DNA from: Candidatus Omnitrophota bacterium
Lineage (GTDB): Bacteria; Omnitrophota; Gorgyraeia; 2-01-FULL-45-10
NCBI GenBank assembly: GCA_028715235.1
Contig: JAQUSE010000001.1
Span: forward strand, 1-37,600
DNA: 37,600 nt
Reading direction: 5' to 3'
Positions 1 through 12,887 of this stretch are shown in pieces. The position numbers and the translations under genes were made by a program. The stretch's first letter is position 1; every line of letters starts with the position of its first letter. The notes under the pieces are model-generated. The model was not told the DNA's origin. It was given only the letters and a program-made list of their open reading frames with translations, and made no database searches.

Positions 1-224
1 CGCATTTCATTATCGCCTATACCCAGGGCGACAGAGAGATCCTTCCTGCCCTCCAGATACTTCCAGTCTCCCAGGACCTTAAAACCGTTTATAATAGAGC
101 CTGCCTTTTGTATATCCTCATCGATAAAACCGGCTGTATCGGCGCCTGCCTCCGCGAGGATATCGAGGACTACCCTGCCATGCCCGCCGGCGCCGAATAT
201 CACGATCTTTTCCCTTTTCTTCAT
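1..224 (-). CDS. neuD: NeuD/PglD-type sugar O/N-acetyltransferase, N-terminal part (runs off window)
   Basis: Open frame of 74 codons from an ATG at 222-224 to the window edge; the rest of the gene lies outside. The start is preceded by AGGGG four bases upstream, and only 8 nt separate it from the neuC stop. The translation begins MKKREKIVIFGAGGHGRVVL, a Rossmann-type glycine-rich motif followed by a flavodoxin-like segment. This is the N-terminal sugar-binding domain of NeuD/PglD acyltransferases; the left-handed beta-helix catalytic part is not visible. NeuD-family enzymes acetylate sialic acid or an aminosugar precursor, using acetyl-CoA in the cytoplasm. Position as the last visible gene after neuA-neuB-neuC supports a role in nonulosonate modification. 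Whether it O- or N-acetylates cannot be told from this fragment. Confidence 0.8.
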   Translation of the reverse strand, partial: MKKREKIVIFGAGGHGRVVLDILAEAGADTAGFIDEDIQKAGSIINGFKVLGDWKYLEGRKDLSVALGIGDNEM

Positions 225-232
225 TTTGCCCC

Positions 233-1378
233 TCAATAGGTCAATTGCTTAACAAGCAGTTCTTTGTTCAGGCGTATTGCGGCCAGTCTGTCTGCTATAC
301 GTTGCCCTGCGTGACCGTCGCCGTAAGGATTATTGCAATGTCTCACCTTATTCCTGAATTTCTTATCGAAAAGCGCCTTTTTGATCGCCCTTAAAATTGC
401 GTTCATCCCATGATCGGCGTCTATGACGTTACCGCAACGCTCGCGGCCCCTTTGTCGATCGCCAATATTTACGACCGGAAGCTTGAACGAAGCGGCTTCG
501 ATAATACCGCTTGAAGAATTTCCCACCAGGACGGACGATATTCTCATAAGCCCCAGGTAGTCTGCGTGCGGTATGCTCTTAAAGGCTTTTATGAGCGAAT
601 GCCTCTCGTATCTTTTTATCACATCGATCATCTTCCTGCCTCCGGCGTCGGCATTGGAGTATATTACAATAGTCTGTATCTGTAACTCTTTGACCGCTTC
701 CAGCGTCGTCCGCATATGCGACGCCGACTTGCCTGTTTCGGCGCTTACAGGATGCTGGACCACGATCAATGTCGGACCGTCATTGAGGCCGTATTTCTTA
801 AGAAGTTCTTTCTTGCCCGCGTAACGGCCGGATAGTACACTATCCAGGGCAGGCGCGCCGACTTTAAAGACCGTATCCGGCCTCTCACCCAGCTTTTTTA
901 TCCTTTCTTTCGCCTTATCCGTAGCGGGAAAGTGTATGTTGGACAACTTCGTTATAGCGTGCCTGACAAGTCCGTCTATGTGCCCCGACACCTCGCCTCC
1001 GTGAATGTGCGCGACGGGTATATTCATATAATTCGCGGCGATGGCCGCGGCAAGCATCTCTCCTCTATCGCCCAGCACCAATACTATATCGGGCTTCAGC
1101 CGGAGAAAACTGTCAGAGAACATCGATACGGCCTTCCCGACGGAGAACGCCATTGCATGGCCGGTATCCTCCCAATACGAAATGTTTATCCTGTTGTTTA
1201 TATGAAAACCGTCTTTCTCTATCTCGCGGACCGTATAGCCGAATTCCTTCATCAGATGCATGGAAGTGGCGATAACAAAGAGTTCCAGGCGCTTAGATTT
1301 TTTTATCGCCTTCATCACCGGTTGGAGAATCCCATAATCCGACCGCGACCCTGTTATAACGCAGACTTTACGTTTCAT
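233..1378 (-). CDS. neuC: UDP-GlcNAc 2-epimerase (hydrolysing), NeuC family
   Basis: 381 residues, the usual length for the family. It converts UDP-GlcNAc to ManNAc plus UDP, the first committed step to sialic acid; LegG-type relatives do the same with diacetylated bacillosamine nucleotides. Visible family motifs are GSRSDYG (residues 10-16), LGDRGEM (102-108), HIHGGE (124-129), SNADAGG (241-247) and GNSSSGIIE (286-294), followed by NIGDRQRGR. The ATG overlaps the neuB stop in an ATGA junction, so translation is coupled. No LegB-type dehydratase is present in the window, which favours the plain ManNAc route. The neighbouring genes to the left are not visible, so a legionaminic-type substrate is not excluded. 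Confidence 0.9.
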   Translation of the reverse strand: MKRKVCVITGSRSDYGILQPVMKAIKKSKRLELFVIATSMHLMKEFGYTVREIEKDGFHINNRINISYWEDTGHAMAFSVGKAVSMFSDSFLRLKPDIVLVLGDRGEMLAAAIAANYMNIPVAHIHGGEVSGHIDGLVRHAITKLSNIHFPATDKAKERIKKLGERPDTVFKVGAPALDSVLSGRYAGKKELLKKYGLNDGPTLIVVQHPVSAETGKSASHMRTTLEAVKELQIQTIVIYSNADAGGRKMIDVIKRYERHSLIKAFKSIPHADYLGLMRISSVLVGNSSSGIIEAASFKLPVVNIGDRQRGRERCGNVIDADHGMNAILRAIKKALFDKKFRNKVRHCNNPYGDGHAGQRIADRLAAIRLNKELLVKQLTY

Positions 1379-2421
1379 ATCATATCCGAGGTCAAGACCT
1401 CGTCCTTCTTTATGCGTAGTTTGGCTTTCTTTCCATCCAGAATATACAGGTATTTAGGACTCAAACCTGTCCCTGGCCTCTTCACCGTAAGCATGCTCCG
1501 TCTTATTGTTCGGCCTTTTGGGATATCTTCAAGCGCCACGACGCTCTTCCTTGCTATCCTCTTCACTTCTTCCTCGGCGGAGGCAGGGGCTTTTATGCCG
1601 CCGCCCATGGACTTTTCGGTATTTCTGACAGACCTCACCAGATCCTCCAGCCCCTTAACGTCTAAGGACGCCTTATGGTCCGGGCCCTTCATGGCTCTGT
1701 CCAGGGTAAAATGTCTCTCGATAACACAGGCTCCTAATGCCGTCGCCGCAATCGACGCCTCCAATCCTTCTGTGTGATCCGAATATCCTACCGGACAGTC
1801 AAAATTTTTCTGAAGCGTAACGATCGCCCTTAGATTGGCGTCTTCGTAACGCGCCGGATAATTAGAAGTGCAGTGCAGCAGTATCAGGCGCCTGTTGCCG
1901 GCCGAATAAATTACATCAACGGCTTCCCTCACCTCACGTAGAGTTGACATGCCGGTAGAAAGGATGATCGGTTTCCCGTATCCGGCTGCCTGTTTTAGTA
2001 AAGGGGTGTTGGTTATCTCACCCGAACTGATCTTAAAGGCGGACACTCCAAGCCTATTCAAGAGAGTGGCGCTTTGAAGATCGAACGGAGTAGAGAGGAA
2101 TAGTATCTTTCTTTTTTTGCAGTGATCGGATAATCTTTTAAACGCTTCTTCGGAGAGCTCAAGCGACTTGAGCATCTGGAACTGCGATTTCCCGGGGACC
2201 GCCCTCTTTTGATAAGCGGCTTTCGGCGCGTCCTTCACCACAAGCTCCTCTGCCCTAAAGGTCTGGAATTTAACGGCGTCGGCGCCGGCGTTTTTAGCCG
2301 CGTCGACCATCTTCATCGCTATGGCAAGGCTGCCATTATGGTTCACGCCGGCCTCGGCTATGATAAATACCGGCCGGCCTTCTCCTATCTTCCTTCCCGC
2401 AATCGTAACATATCTTCGCAT
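1375..2421 (-). CDS. neuB: N-acetylneuraminate (nonulosonate) synthase, NeuB family
   Basis: 348 residues from the ATG at 2419-2421. It condenses PEP with ManNAc or a related six-carbon sugar to give a nine-carbon 2-keto acid. A longer in-frame start lies at 2472, but it would run 52 nt into neuA; the internal ATG sits in a TAATG junction with the neuA stop and is preceded by a G-rich site, so I chose it. The TIM-barrel part carries IAEAGVNHNG (residues 21-30), KFQTF (51-55) and STPFD (110-114). Candidate metal-binding histidines are H216 in GYSDHTEG and H237 in ERHFTLD, matching the spacing in characterised NeuB. Residues about 290-348 form the antifreeze-like SAF domain. Neu5Ac, legionaminate and pseudaminate synthases share this fold, so the exact sugar is uncertain. 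Confidence 0.9.
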   Translation of the reverse strand: MRRYVTIAGRKIGEGRPVFIIAEAGVNHNGSLAIAMKMVDAAKNAGADAVKFQTFRAEELVVKDAPKAAYQKRAVPGKSQFQMLKSLELSEEAFKRLSDHCKKRKILFLSTPFDLQSATLLNRLGVSAFKISSGEITNTPLLKQAAGYGKPIILSTGMSTLREVREAVDVIYSAGNRRLILLHCTSNYPARYEDANLRAIVTLQKNFDCPVGYSDHTEGLEASIAATALGACVIERHFTLDRAMKGPDHKASLDVKGLEDLVRSVRNTEKSMGGGIKAPASAEEEVKRIARKSVVALEDIPKGRTIRRSMLTVKRPGTGLSPKYLYILDGKKAKLRIKKDEVLTSDMI

Positions 2422-3053
2422 TACTGTCTGCCCCCGCCGGCGCGTTTCGACAGGATCTCTCCCGCCATCCATAATTCAAATTCATCGTCTATCTCTACGT
2501 TCTCTTCTTTCGAGGTAAATATACGTCCAGCCTTTTTACCGAATATCTTTCCCTTCTTTATCAGGTCTGCCTTTATAACATATACATTGCCGTCGTCGTA
2601 GAAAAATCCTTTCAGGTCCTGGCGCCTCTTATTTATATACGAGCCATACTCCATGAATTTGCATATAAATCCTGTCGCGAGATTGTCCGCTTTCGTCCTG
2701 CGAAACTTCTTTATACACCTGTCTATCAATCCCGGGCTACGGACCGGGGAAGTAGGTTGGAGCAGCACTACCGTGTCCGTGTCGATCAGCGAAAGCACAT
2801 GCTGCAACGCGGAAAGCGTCGTCGCTTTATCCGTCGCCAGTCTCGCGGGGCGATTTATAACGTCCGCTCCGCACCGTTTTGCGATATTGGCTATTACCGC
2901 GTCGTCCGTCGAGACCACAAAGCGATCCAATAGTTTCGACTTCTTCGCCGCCTCAATAGTCCATGCGATCAGGGGCTTACCTGCTACCATCTTTATATTT
3001 TTTCGCGGTATGCCCTTAGACCCTCCGCGGGCCGGTATTATACCTAACGTCAT
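2421..3053 (-). CDS. neuA: CMP-nonulosonate cytidylyltransferase, NeuA family
   Basis: 210 residues, somewhat short because only the catalytic domain is present, with no C-terminal esterase-like domain. It activates a nonulosonic acid with CTP to give the CMP-sugar used by sialyltransferases. The nucleotide-binding signature IPARGGSKGIPRKN occupies residues 6-19; VVSTDD, LLQPTSP and the late acidic segment ENVEIDDEFEL follow, as in NeuA/LegF/PseF proteins. The ATG overlaps the stop of the upstream aminotransferase (ATGA), and its own stop overlaps the neuB start (TAATG). KdsB, the CMP-Kdo enzyme, is related, but the RGGSKG...RKN signature and the adjacency to neuB fit NeuA better. Confidence 0.88.
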   Translation of the reverse strand: MTLGIIPARGGSKGIPRKNIKMVAGKPLIAWTIEAAKKSKLLDRFVVSTDDAVIANIAKRCGADVINRPARLATDKATTLSALQHVLSLIDTDTVVLLQPTSPVRSPGLIDRCIKKFRRTKADNLATGFICKFMEYGSYINKRRQDLKGFFYDDGNVYVIKADLIKKGKIFGKKAGRIFTSKEENVEIDDEFELWMAGEILSKRAGGGRQ

Positions 3054-4225
3054 AAAACCTCTTTAGCTATCTCTTTTACAGACCCAACGATCCTGTCGAT
3101 CTGTTCGCCGGACATCTTTATATTGATCGGGAGCGCTATCGTCCTCCTCAAATGGTCGTAAGATCTCGGCCACAACCCGGTGAGGTCTTTCCCTTTATAT
3201 GGGTCCAGGCCGGAGAGCAGATGGTCCCACGTCCCCGAAAAATGCCAATTGAACGCGTCCGGCAGGTTCTTAGTGCCTACCTTCTTCTCCTTAAGTTTCT
3301 CTACGAACTTTTTAGCTTTTTCGACGCTCTCCACGGTAAAAGTAAGCGTATCGGCAGTCTCGCCTTCCGCGTCGTTAAAGGACCTGAACTTGAGCCCTTT
3401 CACATTTTTAATCCCCGCCATTATCTCCGCTTTATTCTTTTTCTGCTGAGAGATTGCGTAGTCAAGCTTGGCAAGCTGGACGATCCCTAACGCGCCCTGC
3501 AGTTCCATCATGCGATAGTTGAATCCGGCCTGCCGTCTCGTGTCCTCGCCCCTGGGGAAGTTCGGGTTGCACTGGTGGCCGTGATCGGCAAACTCCATCG
3601 CCTTCTGGTATATCTCTTTGTCATCCGTAATGATCATCCCACCCTCGCCGCAGGTGACCGCTTTCCCGAAATCGAAACTGAACGCCCCCGCGTCTCCTAT
3701 CGAGCCCAGGAGCTTTCCCTTATATTTCCCGCCTATCGCCTGCGCGCTGTCTTCCAGGACCTTGAGCCCCGCGTCTTTCGCTATCTTCATTATCTTATCC
3801 ATGTTGCAGGAAGCGCCGTACATATGGACCGGTATCACCGCCTTTGTCTTCTGTGTGATCCTGCGTTTAAGGTCCTCAGGATCCATGGTAAGGGTCTCGT
3901 TCACTTCCGTAATTACGGGGACGGCGCCGCATTCCATTATAGCTTCGACCGTGGCTACAAAGGTGAAGCTCTGTGTTATCACCTCGTCGCCGGGCCTGAT
4001 CCCGAGAGCCTGCAGCGCTACCTTCAGCGCCACCGAGCCCGAAGTAACGGCCTGCGCGTATCCTGAACCGAATTTCTTCGCGAAAACCTTCTGGAATTCC
4101 TGGACTTTAAAAGAACCGTTGCGCATTCCGTCAAATCCGTGCTTGAACAGGATACCGCCGTACTTATCAAATATATCGAGTACCGCCTGGCGTTCCTCCT
4201 TGCCCACCAATTCAAATCCTGGCAT
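3050..4225 (-). CDS. PLP-dependent sugar aminotransferase, KdnA-like (DegT/DnrJ/EryC1/StrS family)
   Basis: 391 residues, fold-type I aminotransferase. The PLP lysine is K188 in SFDFGKAVTCGEGG, and the pyridine-binding aspartate is D159 in LEDSAQAIGG. The start MPGFELVGKEE, the segments DGMRN, FTFVATVEAI and ETLTMDP, and the late DHGH motif resemble Shewanella KdnA as I remember it. KdnA converts 8-oxo-Kdo to 8-amino-3,8-dideoxy-manno-octulosonate (Kdo8N) with glutamate as amino donor. It follows the iron-type alcohol dehydrogenase gene with a 14-nt overlap, the same pairing as kdnB-kdnA. Its placement in front of neuA and neuB raises the possibility that the aminated substrate is a nonulosonate rather than Kdo. 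The family is secure; the KdnA assignment is moderately secure; the substrate is inferred. Confidence 0.75.
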   Translation of the reverse strand: MPGFELVGKEERQAVLDIFDKYGGILFKHGFDGMRNGSFKVQEFQKVFAKKFGSGYAQAVTSGSVALKVALQALGIRPGDEVITQSFTFVATVEAIMECGAVPVITEVNETLTMDPEDLKRRITQKTKAVIPVHMYGASCNMDKIMKIAKDAGLKVLEDSAQAIGGKYKGKLLGSIGDAGAFSFDFGKAVTCGEGGMIITDDKEIYQKAMEFADHGHQCNPNFPRGEDTRRQAGFNYRMMELQGALGIVQLAKLDYAISQQKKNKAEIMAGIKNVKGLKFRSFNDAEGETADTLTFTVESVEKAKKFVEKLKEKKVGTKNLPDAFNWHFSGTWDHLLSGLDPYKGKDLTGLWPRSYDHLRRTIALPINIKMSGEQIDRIVGSVKEIAKEVL

Positions 4226-5396
4226 CTTTAAGGTCCCTTTCCTCTCTCATCCTGCCGAGCATATCCGATAAGTCTTTTTTACTTATGTCGACAGGGTTTT
4301 GCTCAATGGCCTTCTTCAAAACATCATATTGATCTATCAAAAAAGAGACATCACTCTCTTTCAGCCCCAGCGCTGAAAGCTTCGAGGGGATACCCATCTT
4401 CTCGTCCAAGGCTTTCATATATTCGACGAAAGCTTCGTTCTTCTCTTTTATGGAAAGTCCCCTGACAGAGCCCTCTATCAGGTCGTAAAGCTCGGCGTAA
4501 TCCTGGTAACCGCGCGAGACGTTAAATTCCGTAACGGTTGAAAGAAATACCGCGCCCGCCATCCCGTGCGGCACTTTATAATGCGCACCCAACGGATATG
4601 AGAGCGCCCCCGACGGGCCGGAGCCGGCGTTGATAAGCGCTATCCCCGCCAGATATGCCCCCCATTGCAACCTTGAGCAGATCTCTATATCGTGCGGCTT
4701 ATCAGGCATAACCATCAGGCTGTTAAATATTAACCTGAAGGCCTCTTTCGAAAAAATTCTGGATATCGGCGTATGGTCCTTATGGACAAAACTTTCGAGC
4801 GTATGTGTAAGCGCGTCCATCCCGGAAGATACGGCGACGCTCTTCGGACAATTCAGGATGAATGACGGGTCCAGAATGGCGAGAACAGGAAAGTTATATT
4901 CGGAATTGATGCCGAGCTTCTTCTTCTGGGCGGCGTCTGTAAATACGGCATTATACGTTGCTTCACTCCCGGTCCCGGCTGTGGTGGGGATGGCGCTCAC
5001 TGGAAGCGGCTTGGACTTCAGCGCCGGAAACCCTCTATATTCGATAGCCTTGCCCGGATTCGTGACCAGAGTGGCTATTCCTTTTGCCAGATCCATTGTG
5101 CTGCCGCCGCCTATGCCTATTATCACCTCGAACCCCTTATCCATAAACCCGGCCTTATAATTCTCGAGATAATCGTAGTCCGGCTCGGCAACATCGTTTA
5201 TAAACGTCTCTACGTACAGCCCTTCATTCTTCAAACTTGAGGCGGCTTTTGCGGTAGCATCCAGGCTCTTGACTCCGGCATCTATTATAATCGCGGCCTT
5301 ATGGAAACCCAATTCCTTTACAAATATCCCCAGCCTGGCTGAAACGCCTACCCCGTATTTCAAATTTGTCCTTACCCTAAATCCGAAATCTTTCAT
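4212..5396 (-). CDS. Iron-containing alcohol dehydrogenase-like oxidase, KdnB-like
   Basis: 394 residues. The NAD-binding motif GIGGGSTMDLAK covers residues 94-105. The segment TNPG...EYRG followed by KKLGINSEY (159-167) resembles Shewanella KdnB, which oxidises the C8 hydroxyl of Kdo before amination by KdnA. Two usual metal ligands are visible, D194 and H198 in GMDALTHTLE, as is H277 in VPHGMAG. The position of the third histidine ligand is glycine (G263), and the nearby catalytic histidine position is Y267; a spare histidine lies at H272. The protein may therefore bind metal in an altered way. It is longer than KdnB as I recall it. First enzyme gene after the regulator (9-nt gap) and overlapping the aminotransferase, it probably makes the aldehyde or ketone that the latter aminates. 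Confidence 0.68.
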   Translation of the reverse strand: MKDFGFRVRTNLKYGVGVSARLGIFVKELGFHKAAIIIDAGVKSLDATAKAASSLKNEGLYVETFINDVAEPDYDYLENYKAGFMDKGFEVIIGIGGGSTMDLAKGIATLVTNPGKAIEYRGFPALKSKPLPVSAIPTTAGTGSEATYNAVFTDAAQKKKLGINSEYNFPVLAILDPSFILNCPKSVAVSSGMDALTHTLESFVHKDHTPISRIFSKEAFRLIFNSLMVMPDKPHDIEICSRLQWGAYLAGIALINAGSGPSGALSYPLGAHYKVPHGMAGAVFLSTVTEFNVSRGYQDYAELYDLIEGSVRGLSIKEKNEAFVEYMKALDEKMGIPSKLSALGLKESDVSFLIDQYDVLKKAIEQNPVDISKKDLSDMLGRMREERDLKDARI

Positions 5397-5405
5397 ATTA
5401 CCGTC

Positions 5406-5903
5406 CTATTGTAGAAATTTTTCCGCGAGGCTCAACGCGGTCGCAGCCATAGCCTTCAACTCCTCTATCTTCTTCAACCGCTCCTCATATACCTGCGCTA
5501 TGACCTTCTCCTCATCGGTAAGCTCAGTCGCGGCGGACTTTGTTATCTTCTTGAATTCATCCGTCATGTTGGATACTTCCGCTATCCTCTTCTGCACTGC
5601 CGATCTCAGCTTGTTGGCAAATACCTTCTTTATATCAAGTTCGGCCTCATAATAGTCCTTCCTGGAACCCTTTACCCATATATTCTTTACAGCGCCCCAT
5701 TTCTCCAGTTCCCTGATATTAATACTGACACTGCCTTTACTGACTTCGAGTTCCTCAGCCATCTCATCCAGAGACAGCGGCTTGTTGCTAAGATAAAGCA
5801 CAGCATATAGTTGCGCAACAAATTTGTTAAGACCGAAGCTGCCGCATAGCTTACCTATGCTCTCTATGAATTTATCCTGAGCCATCTCCAATTTTCTATT
5901 CAT
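5406..5903 (-). CDS. GbsR/MarR-family winged-helix transcriptional regulator
   Basis: 165 residues. The N-terminal part (about 10-90) is a winged helix: FGLNKFVAQLYAVLYLSNKP, then LSLDEMAEELEVSKGSVSIN as the recognition helix-turn-helix, then the wing around WVKGSRKDYYEAE. The C-terminal part (about 95-165) is predicted to be a helical dimerisation coil. This arrangement is typical of the GbsR branch of MarR-like repressors. The start at 5901-5903 has AAAGG about seven bases upstream; a second in-frame ATG lies at 5883-5885. It is the first gene of the Kdn/Neu operon, directly behind a strong promoter with a palindromic element over the start point, so autoregulation of the whole operon is likely. 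The ligand is unknown; choline sensing, as in Bacillus GbsR, should not be assumed. Confidence 0.82.
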   Translation of the reverse strand: MNRKLEMAQDKFIESIGKLCGSFGLNKFVAQLYAVLYLSNKPLSLDEMAEELEVSKGSVSINIRELEKWGAVKNIWVKGSRKDYYEAELDIKKVFANKLRSAVQKRIAEVSNMTDEFKKITKSAATELTDEEKVIAQVYEERLKKIEELKAMAATALSLAEKFLQ

Positions 5904-5941: not shown

Positions 5942-5970
5942 AATATACCATAGTACCTGCATTATGTCAA
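5942..5970 (-). promoter_or_regulatory. Sigma-70-type promoter for the regulator/Kdn/Neu operon
   Basis: Read on the minus strand: TTGACA at 5970-5965, a spacer of exactly 17 bases, and TATATT at 5947-5942. The -35 is a perfect consensus and the -10 differs from TATAAT at one position. The predicted start point is near 5935, leaving a leader of about 32 nt with a good ribosome binding site. It sits in the 70-nt gap after the transglutaminase-like gene. Confidence 0.85.
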
Positions 5971-5973
5971 TAA

Positions 5974-6705
5974 TTATACCTCTCCGCTCTCCTTCTCATC
6001 CTCTTTCTCTATACCCAAGACTTTTTTGATCTCAAACCATATCCTTCTTGCGGGCATCTGTTTCTCGGGACGAGTCGTCCTTTTTTCATTCAAAATACGC
6101 TCCAATTCCTGTTTCAGCTCGCTAAAAGGAACTCCCCTATAAGACGAATCCCCGAAGTCCTTGCCGGACATATCATCGATAGTAGCAATCTTCCCGTCCG
6201 CGGTCATGAAATACGTCCCATTATACGAATCGAAGATAGCCCACTTGCCGTTCAATTTGACAAATGACATAATGAACATCGACTTGCGGTCGTTGTAGTA
6301 GACCCTCTCCCAGAATGCCGGCACATGAGCATAGGAACAGAGCGTAGTAAAGACGTCCTGCGATTGGCTGTCGGTGCCGTACCCCCTCACGATAATATTA
6401 TAGATATGGTCATCTACTACCGGCATGCCTTGCGGCACTTTTTTAATACTATCGCCGGTCCATTTAAAAATGGCCAATGCCTTTTCCGCGTCCGTCCTGC
6501 GGGAGGAGGCGACCTCTTTCGCGATCCTGTCGTATTCATAATGGCGCGACAGAAACTCTATCCACTTCACATAAAGCGGCATAGTGATCCTCCGCGTCTT
6601 ACCGTCGATGTTCTGCCGTATTGAAACCTGTAAGTTAAGAACGCCGGCGACTATTAACACGCACACCAGAATAATGGCCGCGCGCTTTATATTTTTCGCT
6701 CTCAT
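5974..6705 (-). CDS. Membrane-anchored transglutaminase-fold protein, apparently without catalytic triad
   Basis: 243 residues. An N-terminal hydrophobic segment (about 8-27) looks like an uncleaved signal anchor, which would place the rest outside the inner membrane. The middle part (about 75-165) resembles a transglutaminase-like core: helix, then DSQSQDVFTTLCSYAHVPAF where the catalytic cysteine loop should be, then FVKLNGKWAIFDSYNG where the histidine and aspartate strands should be. The aspartate (about D159) is kept, but serine (about S115) and methionine (about M146) seem to replace the cysteine and histidine. A charged tail rich in E and K follows. It starts 3 nt after a B12-radical SAM gene and ends that operon. 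The fold call is moderate; function is unknown, possibly binding rather than catalysis. Confidence 0.6.
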   Translation of the reverse strand: MRAKNIKRAAIILVCVLIVAGVLNLQVSIRQNIDGKTRRITMPLYVKWIEFLSRHYEYDRIAKEVASSRRTDAEKALAIFKWTGDSIKKVPQGMPVVDDHIYNIIVRGYGTDSQSQDVFTTLCSYAHVPAFWERVYYNDRKSMFIMSFVKLNGKWAIFDSYNGTYFMTADGKIATIDDMSGKDFGDSSYRGVPFSELKQELERILNEKRTTRPEKQMPARRIWFEIKKVLGIEKEDEKESGEV

Positions 6706-6708
6706 CTC

Positions 6709-8121
6709 TTATTTCCGCCTTTTGAATATATTGAAAACAACGAACACAAAGCCGCGCGCTACAAGGGACAGCTGAGTCAGGGACCTTATCCGAAGTAAAT
6801 GGCTCATCACTTTCGAGGGGCGCAGATAGAAACCGGTAAAAGCCTTCTTCTGCCACCGTATCATGTCGTCTTTTGACATCCCCGGCAGGTGATGTACGGG
6901 CTGTGTATATACTCCGTACATGTCATAATCATAATTATCTATAAGAGCTCTTTCCGAAAGGTAGCTGAATGCTTCGCTGCCGGGATAAGGCTTAAGTATC
7001 AGGAACTTTGCAAAATCCGGATCGAGCTCCTTGGCAAAATCTATCGACTCCCTGACGCTTTGTTCAGTCTCTCCCGGAAGCCCTATGATGAAAAACGCCC
7101 ACGTCTCGAAGCCGAATTTTTTGGCCAGCTTGAAAGCGCTCCTTACCCTATCCAGGCTTATGTTCTTCCTGGCGAGCTTCAACACTTCCTTATTGCCGGA
7201 TTCAACTCCGAAACCGACGTTCCTTACCTTTATCGACCTGAGCGCCTTCAATATGTCCTCATCCACGCAGTCCGCCCTGATGCCGTTCATGAACTCGAGT
7301 GTCAGGTCATAATTTCTCTGCAGGATCGCTTTGCAGAAATCAAGCACCCTTTGCTTATTTATCGTAAATGTGTCATCCGCTATATGTATCTCTTTAACGC
7401 CGTGCTGGGCGACCAGCATATCAATCTCATCCATTATATTCTTCACGCTTCTAAGCCTGACATGCCTGGTGAATATCTGTTTGGTGCAGCAAAATGTGCA
7501 ATCGCCCGGGCAGCCCCTTGAAGTCATTATGGTCGCGACCGGAGTGCGCACCGCATCGGGCGGGACATAATCATTGAGCGACCGGAGGAGGCTCCTGTCC
7601 GGGAATGTTATATCGTCGAGGTTCGCTATCAACTCGCGCGGTTTATTACGGATGACCCGCCCGCCCTCTTTATATAATATTCCGCTTATCCCGGAATAAT
7701 CGTTCTTCCCTTCATCGATCGCCTTTACCAGCTCTTCGACAGTCTTCTCGCCTTCCCCCACGACCACAAAATCTATCTCTTTCTTTTCGGCCGTAACGAC
7801 GGGATCGATAGTGGCATGTATCCCGCCTATGATAACCCTGATGGAACTGTCGTATTCTTTGACGGCGCGCGCCCAGCTTAAGGCGTCTTTGACCGTAGGA
7901 GTGACGCTCGTTATAACTATAAGTCCGGGTTTGAAGCCGGATAATTTTTCCCTGAACGATACAGGCGTCACTTTATCGATATCTATATCCAGCAGCCGAA
8001 CCTCGTGTCCTAATAGTTTAATGACAGTGCCGACGTAGAGTAGCCCCAGCGGCGGATATATCTGCGACATCTTCATCCCGTAGACTTTTTCCTGCGAAGG
8101 GTTTATTAAAAGCGCTCTCAT
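6709..8121 (-). CDS. Cobalamin-binding radical SAM protein
   Basis: 470 residues. An N-terminal B12-binding Rossmann-like domain (about 1-135) contains PPLGLLYVGTVIKLLGHEV, IIGGIHAT and VGEGEKTVEEL. The radical SAM domain follows with its cluster motif C204-x3-C208-x2-C211 (RGCPGDCTFC). The segment DDTFTINKQR, then GFGVESGN, KNISLD and GLPGET, matches the other B12-radical SAM proteins of this window. The C-terminal tail (about 435-470) ends in a hydrophobic helix, FVFVVFNIF, suggesting membrane association. Such enzymes methylate unactivated carbon or rearrange bonds using methylcobalamin and 5'-deoxyadenosyl radical chemistry. The start overlaps the upstream methyltransferase stop (ATGA). 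The substrate is unknown; a lipid-linked glycan is the inference from context. Confidence 0.88.
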   Translation of the reverse strand: MRALLINPSQEKVYGMKMSQIYPPLGLLYVGTVIKLLGHEVRLLDIDIDKVTPVSFREKLSGFKPGLIVITSVTPTVKDALSWARAVKEYDSSIRVIIGGIHATIDPVVTAEKKEIDFVVVGEGEKTVEELVKAIDEGKNDYSGISGILYKEGGRVIRNKPRELIANLDDITFPDRSLLRSLNDYVPPDAVRTPVATIMTSRGCPGDCTFCCTKQIFTRHVRLRSVKNIMDEIDMLVAQHGVKEIHIADDTFTINKQRVLDFCKAILQRNYDLTLEFMNGIRADCVDEDILKALRSIKVRNVGFGVESGNKEVLKLARKNISLDRVRSAFKLAKKFGFETWAFFIIGLPGETEQSVRESIDFAKELDPDFAKFLILKPYPGSEAFSYLSERALIDNYDYDMYGVYTQPVHHLPGMSKDDMIRWQKKAFTGFYLRPSKVMSHLLRIRSLTQLSLVARGFVFVVFNIFKRRK

Positions 8122-10324: not shown

Positions 10325-12135
10325 TTTATCTTCCGGTTCTTTTCCCATTTTTTAATACAATCCCATACATAATAGAAACCTATCACGAACAGCATAATAA
10401 AGAACGGATGGAGCGGCGCCCTGTGGCGGCCGGTCCTTATGGTAAAAAACAGAGGATGCGATATGAAATAATACACAAAGATCAGGAAAAACAGCCAGAC
10501 GAGGTCCCGCCTGTTTTTTTTCGAGAACCACAGGAATGCGCCAAGTATGATAAAGATGTATATGTAGGAAAGCATGTACGAGCCGAAAGCGTTATAGTAC
10601 CTGGACGGCAGGACGAGAATAAAAGGATTGAAGAACCCGAAGAACGTTATGAAAAAGAAGGCATGGATGTTGACCGCTACTTTCTTAAGGAATATGGTGG
10701 GGATCTCGACGGGATGCTCCTGGAGCGCCTTTATCGAGCCTGTGATACTGGCGAACGGGTTGAAGCCGAGCTTGTCGAGTTCCGAATGATGGTGCCTGAA
10801 CGTCCCCACCCCCTGGCTTATGACGAGCGTATTTGCATCTTGCGTAAAATCGGCGTTCCGGTATTTTGAGTACATGTATTCCGCCGGGTAGGTCGCGATG
10901 AACGTAACGGCGAGGAACAGTATGAAGTTGACCACCTTCGACCTCAGGCCCATGCTTTTTACAAAAAAGAGAAGCCATATAAAGGCGAACACCGGAAAGA
11001 GGACCATTATGGACCGCACGCCGTTCATGAGGCCGAAGACGAGCCCTGTTAGTGCCGATATACCTATAATATTTTTTCCTTTTTCGGAATAGCCTGCCAG
11101 TAAAAGCACATACAGGTATAATAGCGGTATCATGAGAGCCTCGGGCTGGAGCACCGCGGCAAGATATACAAGCGACATGCACAATGCCGTCAATATGGCG
11201 GCAAGCCTGGCCATCCTCTCCTGGCTGGTCAGTTTGAGCATAATATAATAGACCAGCGGCGCCATGAAAGAGGCCAGGATGCTCTGTATGAAAGATACCG
11301 CATAGAAGTTCCTGCCGAATATTTTATAAATAAGGCCTAAGAATATCCAATAGTAGGGACCGAATACGACGAAGACGAGCGAGCCGTCAAAAAGGGATTT
11401 GAAATCCTTGGCTATCATCTGCGCGTTCTCGTCGTAGCTGAGTCCGTCGCAGCTGGCGACGGTAAAACGCTCCCCAGTCTGTATTATGAGTATCACCCCG
11501 AACATGATGCGAAGAATGACCGCCAGCAGATACACAAATACAAGGAATTTCCATCTCTTCTCAAAGAATTTCGAAACTGTGCGCGCTGCTCTTCCGAATG
11601 TGACGCCGGCGTCAACGACGAACGACGCGCCGAACGCTCCAACCATCGCCAGAAGCCCCGCAACAAATCCGCTTTTCAAAAGAATGCCCGAAAGCGCAAT
11701 GAATGTCATAAGATATATTAATCCGATGTCAAATAAACCGCTCTTTTTTGTAAAGCAGTCTTTCGCAAAACACGCGGCAAGATACCCCACAAGGGCAAAA
11801 ACGGCCAGCATAACAGCAATCACGTATACCATATACACCTTGTTAAGCGGATTTGAAGCGCCAAGCCTGACATGAAGATCGACCAGCAAAACGGCCAGCT
11901 CCGCCAGGAGCCAGGGCTTTATTATACGAGCCAGGGAGTTCTTAAAACCGGCCTTAAACAACCTGCTATGGGTGAATGCGTATAGAACAGCCAATCCCCA
12001 ATATATTACCGGGAGCGGCATCTTCCAAAATATTCCTTGTATGTATATCGACTTTATCTCGAGCGTAAAAAGGGTCGTGAGAAAACCAGCCGCAAACAGA
12101 CATACGAAAGCCGCCACGTATGATATGTATGACAT
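10321..12135 (-). CDS. GT-C (GT39/PMT-like) polytopic membrane glycosyltransferase with extra N-terminal module
   Basis: 604 residues from the ATG at 12133-12135, preceded by GGGAGGTG; the upstream stop TGA lies inside that ribosome binding site. An earlier ATG at 12159 would overlap the upstream gene and lacks such a site. About a dozen or more hydrophobic segments are visible. The GT39-like core begins near residue 195 and carries D230 and D235-E236 (CDGLSYDENAQMIA) in the first large outside loop, where these enzymes keep catalytic acids. The region before it, about 190 residues with several membrane helices, is an addition to the usual fold. RHRAPLHPFFIM near the C-terminus is also typical. 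It should transfer a sugar from a polyprenyl-phosphate donor on the outer face of the inner membrane. Confidence 0.8.
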   Translation of the reverse strand: MSYISYVAAFVCLFAAGFLTTLFTLEIKSIYIQGIFWKMPLPVIYWGLAVLYAFTHSRLFKAGFKNSLARIIKPWLLAELAVLLVDLHVRLGASNPLNKVYMVYVIAVMLAVFALVGYLAACFAKDCFTKKSGLFDIGLIYLMTFIALSGILLKSGFVAGLLAMVGAFGASFVVDAGVTFGRAARTVSKFFEKRWKFLVFVYLLAVILRIMFGVILIIQTGERFTVASCDGLSYDENAQMIAKDFKSLFDGSLVFVVFGPYYWIFLGLIYKIFGRNFYAVSFIQSILASFMAPLVYYIMLKLTSQERMARLAAILTALCMSLVYLAAVLQPEALMIPLLYLYVLLLAGYSEKGKNIIGISALTGLVFGLMNGVRSIMVLFPVFAFIWLLFFVKSMGLRSKVVNFILFLAVTFIATYPAEYMYSKYRNADFTQDANTLVISQGVGTFRHHHSELDKLGFNPFASITGSIKALQEHPVEIPTIFLKKVAVNIHAFFFITFFGFFNPFILVLPSRYYNAFGSYMLSYIYIFIILGAFLWFSKKNRRDLVWLFFLIFVYYFISHPLFFTIRTGRHRAPLHPFFIMLFVIGFYYVWDCIKKWEKNRKIK

Positions 12136-12137
12136 GT

Positions 12138-12887
12138 TCACCTCCCTTTTGTTTTGCATATATCTTCCCGCAGTTCCCGCCTGAACTTGAATATCTTTAT
12201 TACATAATCGGCAATATCCTTTGAAAATCTTACGGTACTGGGCTTGTGCGGTAATTTTACAAATAGAGCCGGCACCTCGATGATCTTTTTATCGGCGAGT
12301 CTCGACCGGCAGACGACCTCCGTGTCCCAGAACCAGTGGCCGTCCTTGACGCTATTTATTACCCCCATCATCGTCTTCCTGTTAAAGAACTTAAACCCGC
12401 TTTCCGAATCTATCCCCTTCATGCCTAGGACCATGCCGGAGAACCTGATATAGCCCTTGCTCACTATGAACCGTACGATGGAATGATAATTGAGGTCGAA
12501 TAATCTTCTGGCAATGACAAAGTCGGCGCCTTTTTCTATTTCGAGCAGCACCGAAGGTATATACCTTGCGTGTATCTCGAGGTCGATGTCGAGATATCCC
12601 ATGATCCTCCCTTTCGCGGCGATAAATCCGTCGGTAACGCTGCGGCCTCTTCCCATATTCTGTTCGTGGAATTTTTTACTCAGGCGCCGGCCGGGATGCT
12701 CGGCGATGATCTGATCTATCATATCCCTGGAATTATCGCGGCTCTTGTCGTCTACAAATATGATCTCGTATGAGTATCTGGTCGTATCCATTATATCCAT
12801 GATCTGGCCGACATTGTTCTTTAGATGAGGGGCGTCATTATAACAGGCTACGATTATGCTGACATCTACGTTATTATTTTCGCTCAT
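12138..12887 (-). CDS. GT2 glycosyltransferase, polyprenyl-phosphate sugar synthase-like
   Basis: 249 residues from the ATG at 12885-12887. Another ATG two codons earlier has almost no spacing to the GGAGAGG site, so I chose the later one. The GT-A fold motifs are VSIIVACYND near the N-terminus, IIFVDDKSRDNS for nucleotide binding, and YLDIDLE as the metal-binding D-x-D. The later segment SESGFKFFNR and WFWDTEVV are typical of the DPM1/ArnC-like group that loads sugars onto undecaprenyl phosphate. There are no C-terminal membrane helices. Its neighbour downstream is a GT-C enzyme that would use exactly such a lipid-phosphate sugar donor, so the two probably form a donor-transferase pair. Confidence 0.85.
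   Translation of the reverse strand: MSENNNVDVSIIVACYNDAPHLKNNVGQIMDIMDTTRYSYEIIFVDDKSRDNSRDMIDQIIAEHPGRRLSKKFHEQNMGRGRSVTDGFIAAKGRIMGYLDIDLEIHARYIPSVLLEIEKGADFVIARRLFDLNYHSIVRFIVSKGYIRFSGMVLGMKGIDSESGFKFFNRKTMMGVINSVKDGHWFWDTEVVCRSRLADKKIIEVPALFVKLPHKPSTVRFSKDIADYVIKIFKFRRELREDICKTKGR

Follow-up and report, generated by a model that had tools for sequence, protein, structure and literature searches.

A KdnA-clade aminotransferase and an iron-dependent alcohol dehydrogenase in a neuABCD operon of Omnitrophota: a candidate pathway to terminally aminated nonulosonates

To our knowledge, 8-amino-3,8-dideoxy-Kdo (Kdo8N; Kdo, 3-deoxy-D-manno-oct-2-ulosonic acid) is the only ulosonate made by terminal oxidation and amination. 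The pathway is that of Shewanella oneidensis, where the enzymes KdnB and KdnA (their function is given in PMC5125639) act before activation with cytidine monophosphate (CMP). Operons for N-acetylneuraminic acid (Neu5Ac) carry neuABCD, and those for legionaminic or pseudaminic acid have a DegT aminotransferase and a NeuD/PglD-type acetyltransferase beside NeuB. Here we describe a neu operon at the start of contig JAQUSE010000001.1 of Candidatus Omnitrophota bacterium (GCA_028715235.1), analysed as a stretch of 37,600 nucleotides (positions 1 to 37,600, the window), that can be compared with all of these. As in the Shewanella pathway, oxidation by a member of the iron-dependent alcohol dehydrogenase (Fe-ADH) superfamily and amination by a pyridoxal-phosphate (PLP) enzyme of the KdnA clade would precede CMP activation, and the two aminotransferases are orthologue-like; in contrast to it, the dehydrogenase belongs to another Fe-ADH subfamily, the genes are linked to neuABCD instead of kds, and the loop beside the clade motif of the aminotransferase is different. 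NeuA, NeuB, NeuC and NeuD are all present as in Neu5Ac operons, but two extra enzymes overlap or abut the pathway genes and are conserved across families of the class. The locus shares the DegT aminotransferase and the acetyltransferase with legionaminic and pseudaminic acid operons, whereas it has no core 4,6-dehydratase, a dehydrogenase in the dehydratase's place, and an aminotransferase of the KdnA clade rather than LegC or PseC.

We propose, with a probability of roughly 0.6, that the operon makes a CMP-activated nonulosonate in which the terminal (C9-type) hydroxyl is replaced by an amine. The sequence comparisons support in their main line a Kdo8N-style terminal amination that appears to be attached to a sialic-acid-type pathway. 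All six genes that the initial annotation had described as a neu operon with oxidation and amination genes were found, on the minus strand and in the order Fe-ADH, KdnA-type, NeuA, NeuB, NeuC and NeuD, and neighbouring core genes overlap or lie no more than 9 bases apart. If the proposal is true, it would provide a natural route to 9-amino sialic acids, with a NeuA that likely accepts them, and replacing the hydroxyl at the sugar tip with an amine would alter surface charge and recognition. The papers searched contained no description of such a gene cluster, and among 9-amino sialic acids they gave synthetic analogues only, no natural one.

The aminotransferase (3050-4225) is a DegT protein with a catalytic-type lysine, K188, in the context GK..T.GEGG. 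Its best solved relative in a search of the PDB was KdnA (5k8b, 8-amino-3,8-dideoxy-Kdo transaminase) with 285 bits, followed by the next entry at 182. KdnA was also the first fold match, for which a weak structure model (predicted local distance difference test, pLDDT, 68.5) was used for ranking only. In a first tree the protein grouped with the verified Shewanella KdnA at a support of 100/100, and the same grouping was recovered with 97/87 after sister sequences and a phage homologue had been added (ultrafast bootstrap, 97-100); other DegT enzymes fell outside, which bears out the KdnA-like assignment of the initial annotation. All sequences of the KdnA clade carry the motif [NDS]WH[YF]xxxWxH, which as a regular expression matched 0/29 of the DegT enzymes outside the clade in the first set; the form beginning with SWH, from the divergent genome G452, was taken from the alignment. 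The loop adjoining this motif reads (T/L)KNLP(D/G)A in the neu-linked KdnA proteins vs GCFYWYV in the Shewanella Kdo enzyme, and by analogy with the DegT fold it would line the substrate pocket. Identity as LegC or PseC was rejected, as the scores (216 and 209 bits) lie below the respective cut-offs of 420 and 423.5 and the core has no 4,6-dehydratase. A KdnA-clade aminotransferase was also seen at the end of a phage-like contig with a terminase-like neighbour (L085 1-1140, IMGVR_UViG_3300036859_001058); it has 44% identity, the clade motif and a KNLPDA loop. Searches for KdnA gave best full-length matches of only 31-36% identity in plasmids and no match in the phage records searched, and a genome-wide scan with a single sequence returned only distant DegT relatives.

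The dehydrogenase (4212-5396), a candidate terminal-alcohol oxidase, has the Pfam Fe-ADH domains and a GGGS nucleotide-binding motif. It had been called KdnB-like, which holds at the level of the Fe-ADH superfamily only. Among solved structures it is closest to methanol dehydrogenase and FucO. Orthology to KdnB was rejected, with 81 bits to KdnB (5k8c) vs 194 to methanol dehydrogenase. KdnB was also absent among the top 50 fold matches and among the matches of the active-site profile. The protein thus belongs to another Fe-ADH subfamily, and its metal site is altered: of the four metal ligands typical of the family (an Asp and three His), the positions D196, H200 and H277 are kept in the alignment with FucO (D196 and H200 presumably being metal ligands of FucO), and the metal ligand H263 is replaced by Gly; H267 is replaced by Tyr. 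Human ADHFE1 likewise has a Tyr at the position of H267, and there are members of the Fe-ADH family that function without metal (PMC5125639); the change in the active site is therefore compatible with activity.

To follow the linkage of these genes, we searched two overlapping genome samples, one of the phylum (384 genomes) and one of the class (384 genomes). A KdnA-type enzyme was encoded in six genomes including that of the window, and in 6/6 its gene was linked to neuA and/or neuB. The linkage to neu genes noted in the initial annotation is shared by five further genomes of the class; this is more than chance. G241 and G180, which represent two other families, have the entire order Fe-ADH-KdnA-NeuA-NeuB-NeuC-NeuD, followed by the same short-chain dehydrogenase/reductase (SDR) and DegT genes as in the window's genome. 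KdnA and NeuA are adjacent in G310, with NeuB two genes further and the Fe-ADH end missing, as well as in G357, where an Fe-ADH fragment lies on the same contig and NeuB does not. The divergent G452 has Fe-ADH-KdnA-NeuB-NeuC with 36%, 50%, 41% and 38% identity to the proteins of the window, its contig ending within neuC. The best conserved member is NeuA, with ~73% identity to the window's protein in the four linked relatives. The idea that a NeuA of this type strictly requires KdnA was rejected, since NeuA relatives at ~62% identity exist without the pair.

The dehydrogenase showed a similar association. Among the 384 genomes of the class, a profile search detected 13 Fe-ADH matches, and a branch supported at 100/100 separates the eight best from the others. 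All eight are encoded near nonulosonate synthase and/or CMP-transferase genes plus an aminotransferase gene, vs 0/5 with nonulosonate neighbours, in the stretches read, among the weaker matches, which keep the His at the position of FucO H267 (one-sided Fisher test, 0.0008, a value confounded by kinship). The partner aminotransferase is of the KdnA type in four of the eight (window, G241, G180, G452); G366, G023 and G274 have a different DegT type, and G131 has a class III enzyme resembling glutamate-1-semialdehyde (GSA) aminotransferase. These types are interleaved in the dehydrogenase tree, with G366 pairing with G452 and G131 with the group of the window; therefore, the dehydrogenase remained with the nonulosonate genes through an exchange of its aminotransferase partner. 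It is conceivable, at somewhat below even odds, that the phylum makes a class of terminally aminated nonulosonates, in which a single Fe-ADH clade, dedicated to this task and with a modified active site, produces the aldehyde and three recruited aminotransferase lineages (KdnA-type, other DegT and class III) aminate it. At the active site, the closest nonulosonate-linked relatives of the window's dehydrogenase have Gly or Ser at the position of FucO H263, and Tyr stands at that of H267 in all eight clade members.

The remaining core genes point to a sialic-acid-type sugar. NeuB (1375-2421, with a SAF domain; Pfam NeuB and SAF) reached 456.7 bits against TIGR03569 (curated cut-off 399.65), a model that, we assume, may fail to separate Neu5Ac synthases from legionaminic ones. 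NeuC (233-1378), a hydrolysing UDP-GlcNAc 2-epimerase (UDP-GlcNAc, uridine diphosphate N-acetylglucosamine), scored 446.3 bits with TIGR03568 (curated cut-off 235.9). The NeuA-type CMP-nonulosonate synthetase (2421-3053) gave 98 bits with CMP-Neu5Ac synthetases in the PDB vs 34 with KdsB, and 133 bits with the PseF model, below the cut-off of 205.7. The nearest solved relatives of NeuD are the N-acetyltransferases PerB and PglB; the window holds the 5′ part of this acyltransferase gene (1-224), its remainder lies on contig C267, and the orthologue in L052 exceeds the TIGR03570 cut-off. Family models found no 4,6-dehydratase among the core operon genes, and the SDR encoded after NeuD was rejected as one because it has STCSVYG or SSCSVYG, in which the acidic dehydratase residue is missing. 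Both results agree with a sugar of the Neu type rather than of the legionaminic type. Terminal amination requires a C9 hydroxyl.

We infer the reactions, their order and the role of NeuD from what was observed, namely gene identities, gene order, linkage, clades and the separate Kdo genes of the relatives. NeuC would convert UDP-GlcNAc to N-acetylmannosamine (ManNAc), which NeuB would condense with phosphoenolpyruvate; the Fe-ADH would oxidise the terminal CH2OH to an aldehyde, the KdnA-clade PLP enzyme would aminate this aldehyde, and NeuA would form the CMP sugar after amination. NeuD may N-acetylate the new amine. Alternatively, C6 of ManNAc would be oxidised and aminated ahead of condensation, which would also yield a 9-amino nonulosonate. 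The earlier idea that a NeuB product is oxidised, aminated and then activated by NeuA thus retains its placement of the pair in the neu pathway, for which linkage, the ~73% identity of NeuA, the loop and the Fe-ADH clade speak, and loses its KdnB-type dehydrogenase.

Several observations weigh against terminal amination. The Fe-ADH has lost the catalytic His known from FucO as well as one His that binds the metal there, relatives of NeuA with ~62% identity occur without the dehydrogenase and aminotransferase, and the conserved SDR and second DegT genes after NeuD (window's genome, G241 and G180) have no explanation in it. Furthermore, the Fe-ADH of this clade in G131 adjoins a legionaminic-looking cassette, the product of which would be without a C9 hydroxyl, and the rule of terminal amination may thus have limited validity across the clade.

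The same observations in part favour another reading, in which the two enzymes belong to the nonulosonate pathway but work away from the terminal carbon, or on another sugar of the same glycan, and give a differently aminated nonulosonate or other amino sugar. We consider this unlikely, if deserving of serious attention: the altered active site, the neighbourhood in G131, the SDR and second DegT kept in three genomes, and acetamidino-forming genes in G241 and G366 (with a same-looking run in G180) would suit it, but the only reaction known for the KdnA clade is to aminate a free ulosonate at its terminal aldehyde, and the clade motif is conserved here; moreover, a terminal CH2OH is the best match for a dehydrogenase from a primary-alcohol family with an aminotransferase acting after it.

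The Kdo genes bear on the other alternative. The initial annotation had raised the matter of separate kdsA and kdsB genes, and both are present elsewhere in G241, G357, G310 and G180, the four relatives examined, together on other contigs, whereas in the window's genome only kdsB was found, at a cut contig end and beside the same kinase gene. kdsD- and kdsC-like genes follow in three of the four, while in G180 kdsA runs off the contig; waaA lies on another contig in all four, and family models confirmed the identities of the Kdo genes of G357. kdsA and waaA were not found in the window's genome, which is 88% complete. The location of the Kdo genes elsewhere, together with the difference in the KdnA loop, makes a neu-pathway substrate more likely than Kdo. 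That the Fe-ADH and KdnA instead make Kdo8N from free Kdo, with the neu genes producing an ordinary sialic acid in parallel as the second of two bundled surface-sugar pathways, is improbable: it is established that the sole characterised KdnA acts on Kdo, and free Kdo would be available from these genes, but the pair stood beside a kds gene in 0 of the genomes seen and beside neuA or neuB in 6/6, the loop is unlike that of the Kdo enzyme, the dehydrogenase is not of the KdnB type, and its clade keeps nonulosonate neighbours when the aminotransferase changes.

Two nearly identical KdsB-family genes lie at the contig ends of C210 (L013 6157-6933) and C267 (L011 53-844). They score over the cut-off of PRK13368 and below that of the kdsB model TIGR00466, and are probably the result of strain variation or an assembly duplicate.

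The boundaries of the operon extend beyond the six genes. At window positions 1-59, the window's contig (C146) has an exact 59-base overlap with contig C267 of the same genome; the overlap falls inside neuD, whose reading frame continues and is completed there. The gene run on C267 then proceeds to a CBS-domain SDR and the second DegT aminotransferase. At the other end, a minus-strand gene for a winged-helix regulator (5406-5903) that is GbsR/CudC-like (GbsR/MarR-like; NCBIfam CudC, 86 bits, below the cut-off of 218) is separated by 9 bases from the Fe-ADH gene and is probably the first gene of the unit. A consensus scan located a sigma-70-like promoter match on the same strand (5942-5970, TTGACA-17-TATATT with an extended -10, 11/12 matches) in the 70-base gap upstream of it. 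A single promoter with the regulator gene first, as predicted by this consensus match, is plausible; the earlier claim of one promoter is tenable in this form, for a unit that is larger than described and includes the regulator upstream and genes beyond neuD. The open reading frame of neuB opens at 2472, but translation probably starts at 2421, because there the sequence TAATG overlaps the neuA stop with the neuB start.

Further genes of nonulosonate metabolism were seen on C267 (L011): a second nonulosonate synthase of 290 amino acids without a SAF domain (11665-12537) and a PseF scoring over the curated cut-off (6882-7607). Therefore, a second nonulosonate pathway is likely. A protein of ~400 amino acids without a Pfam match recurs beside Fe-ADH or NeuA genes (L011 16000-17214; L053 5972-7204; L165 5716-6894; L166 2755-3942) and is a candidate CMP-nonulosonate transferase. 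In relatives, genes for the acetamidino-forming WbuX and WbuZ follow the operon (L052 12077-14823, there also with HisH; L152 13904-15864), which suggests amidination of an amino sugar. A transglutaminase-core-like, membrane-anchored protein is encoded upstream of nonulosonate runs (window 5974-6705; L062 1183-1923; L152 664-1395; L154 2081-2773). Upstream of the operon, the window contains a long same-strand array (6709-34079) with genes for B12-binding radical SAM enzymes, glycosyltransferases and an asparagine synthase-like enzyme, as well as flippase-like genes.

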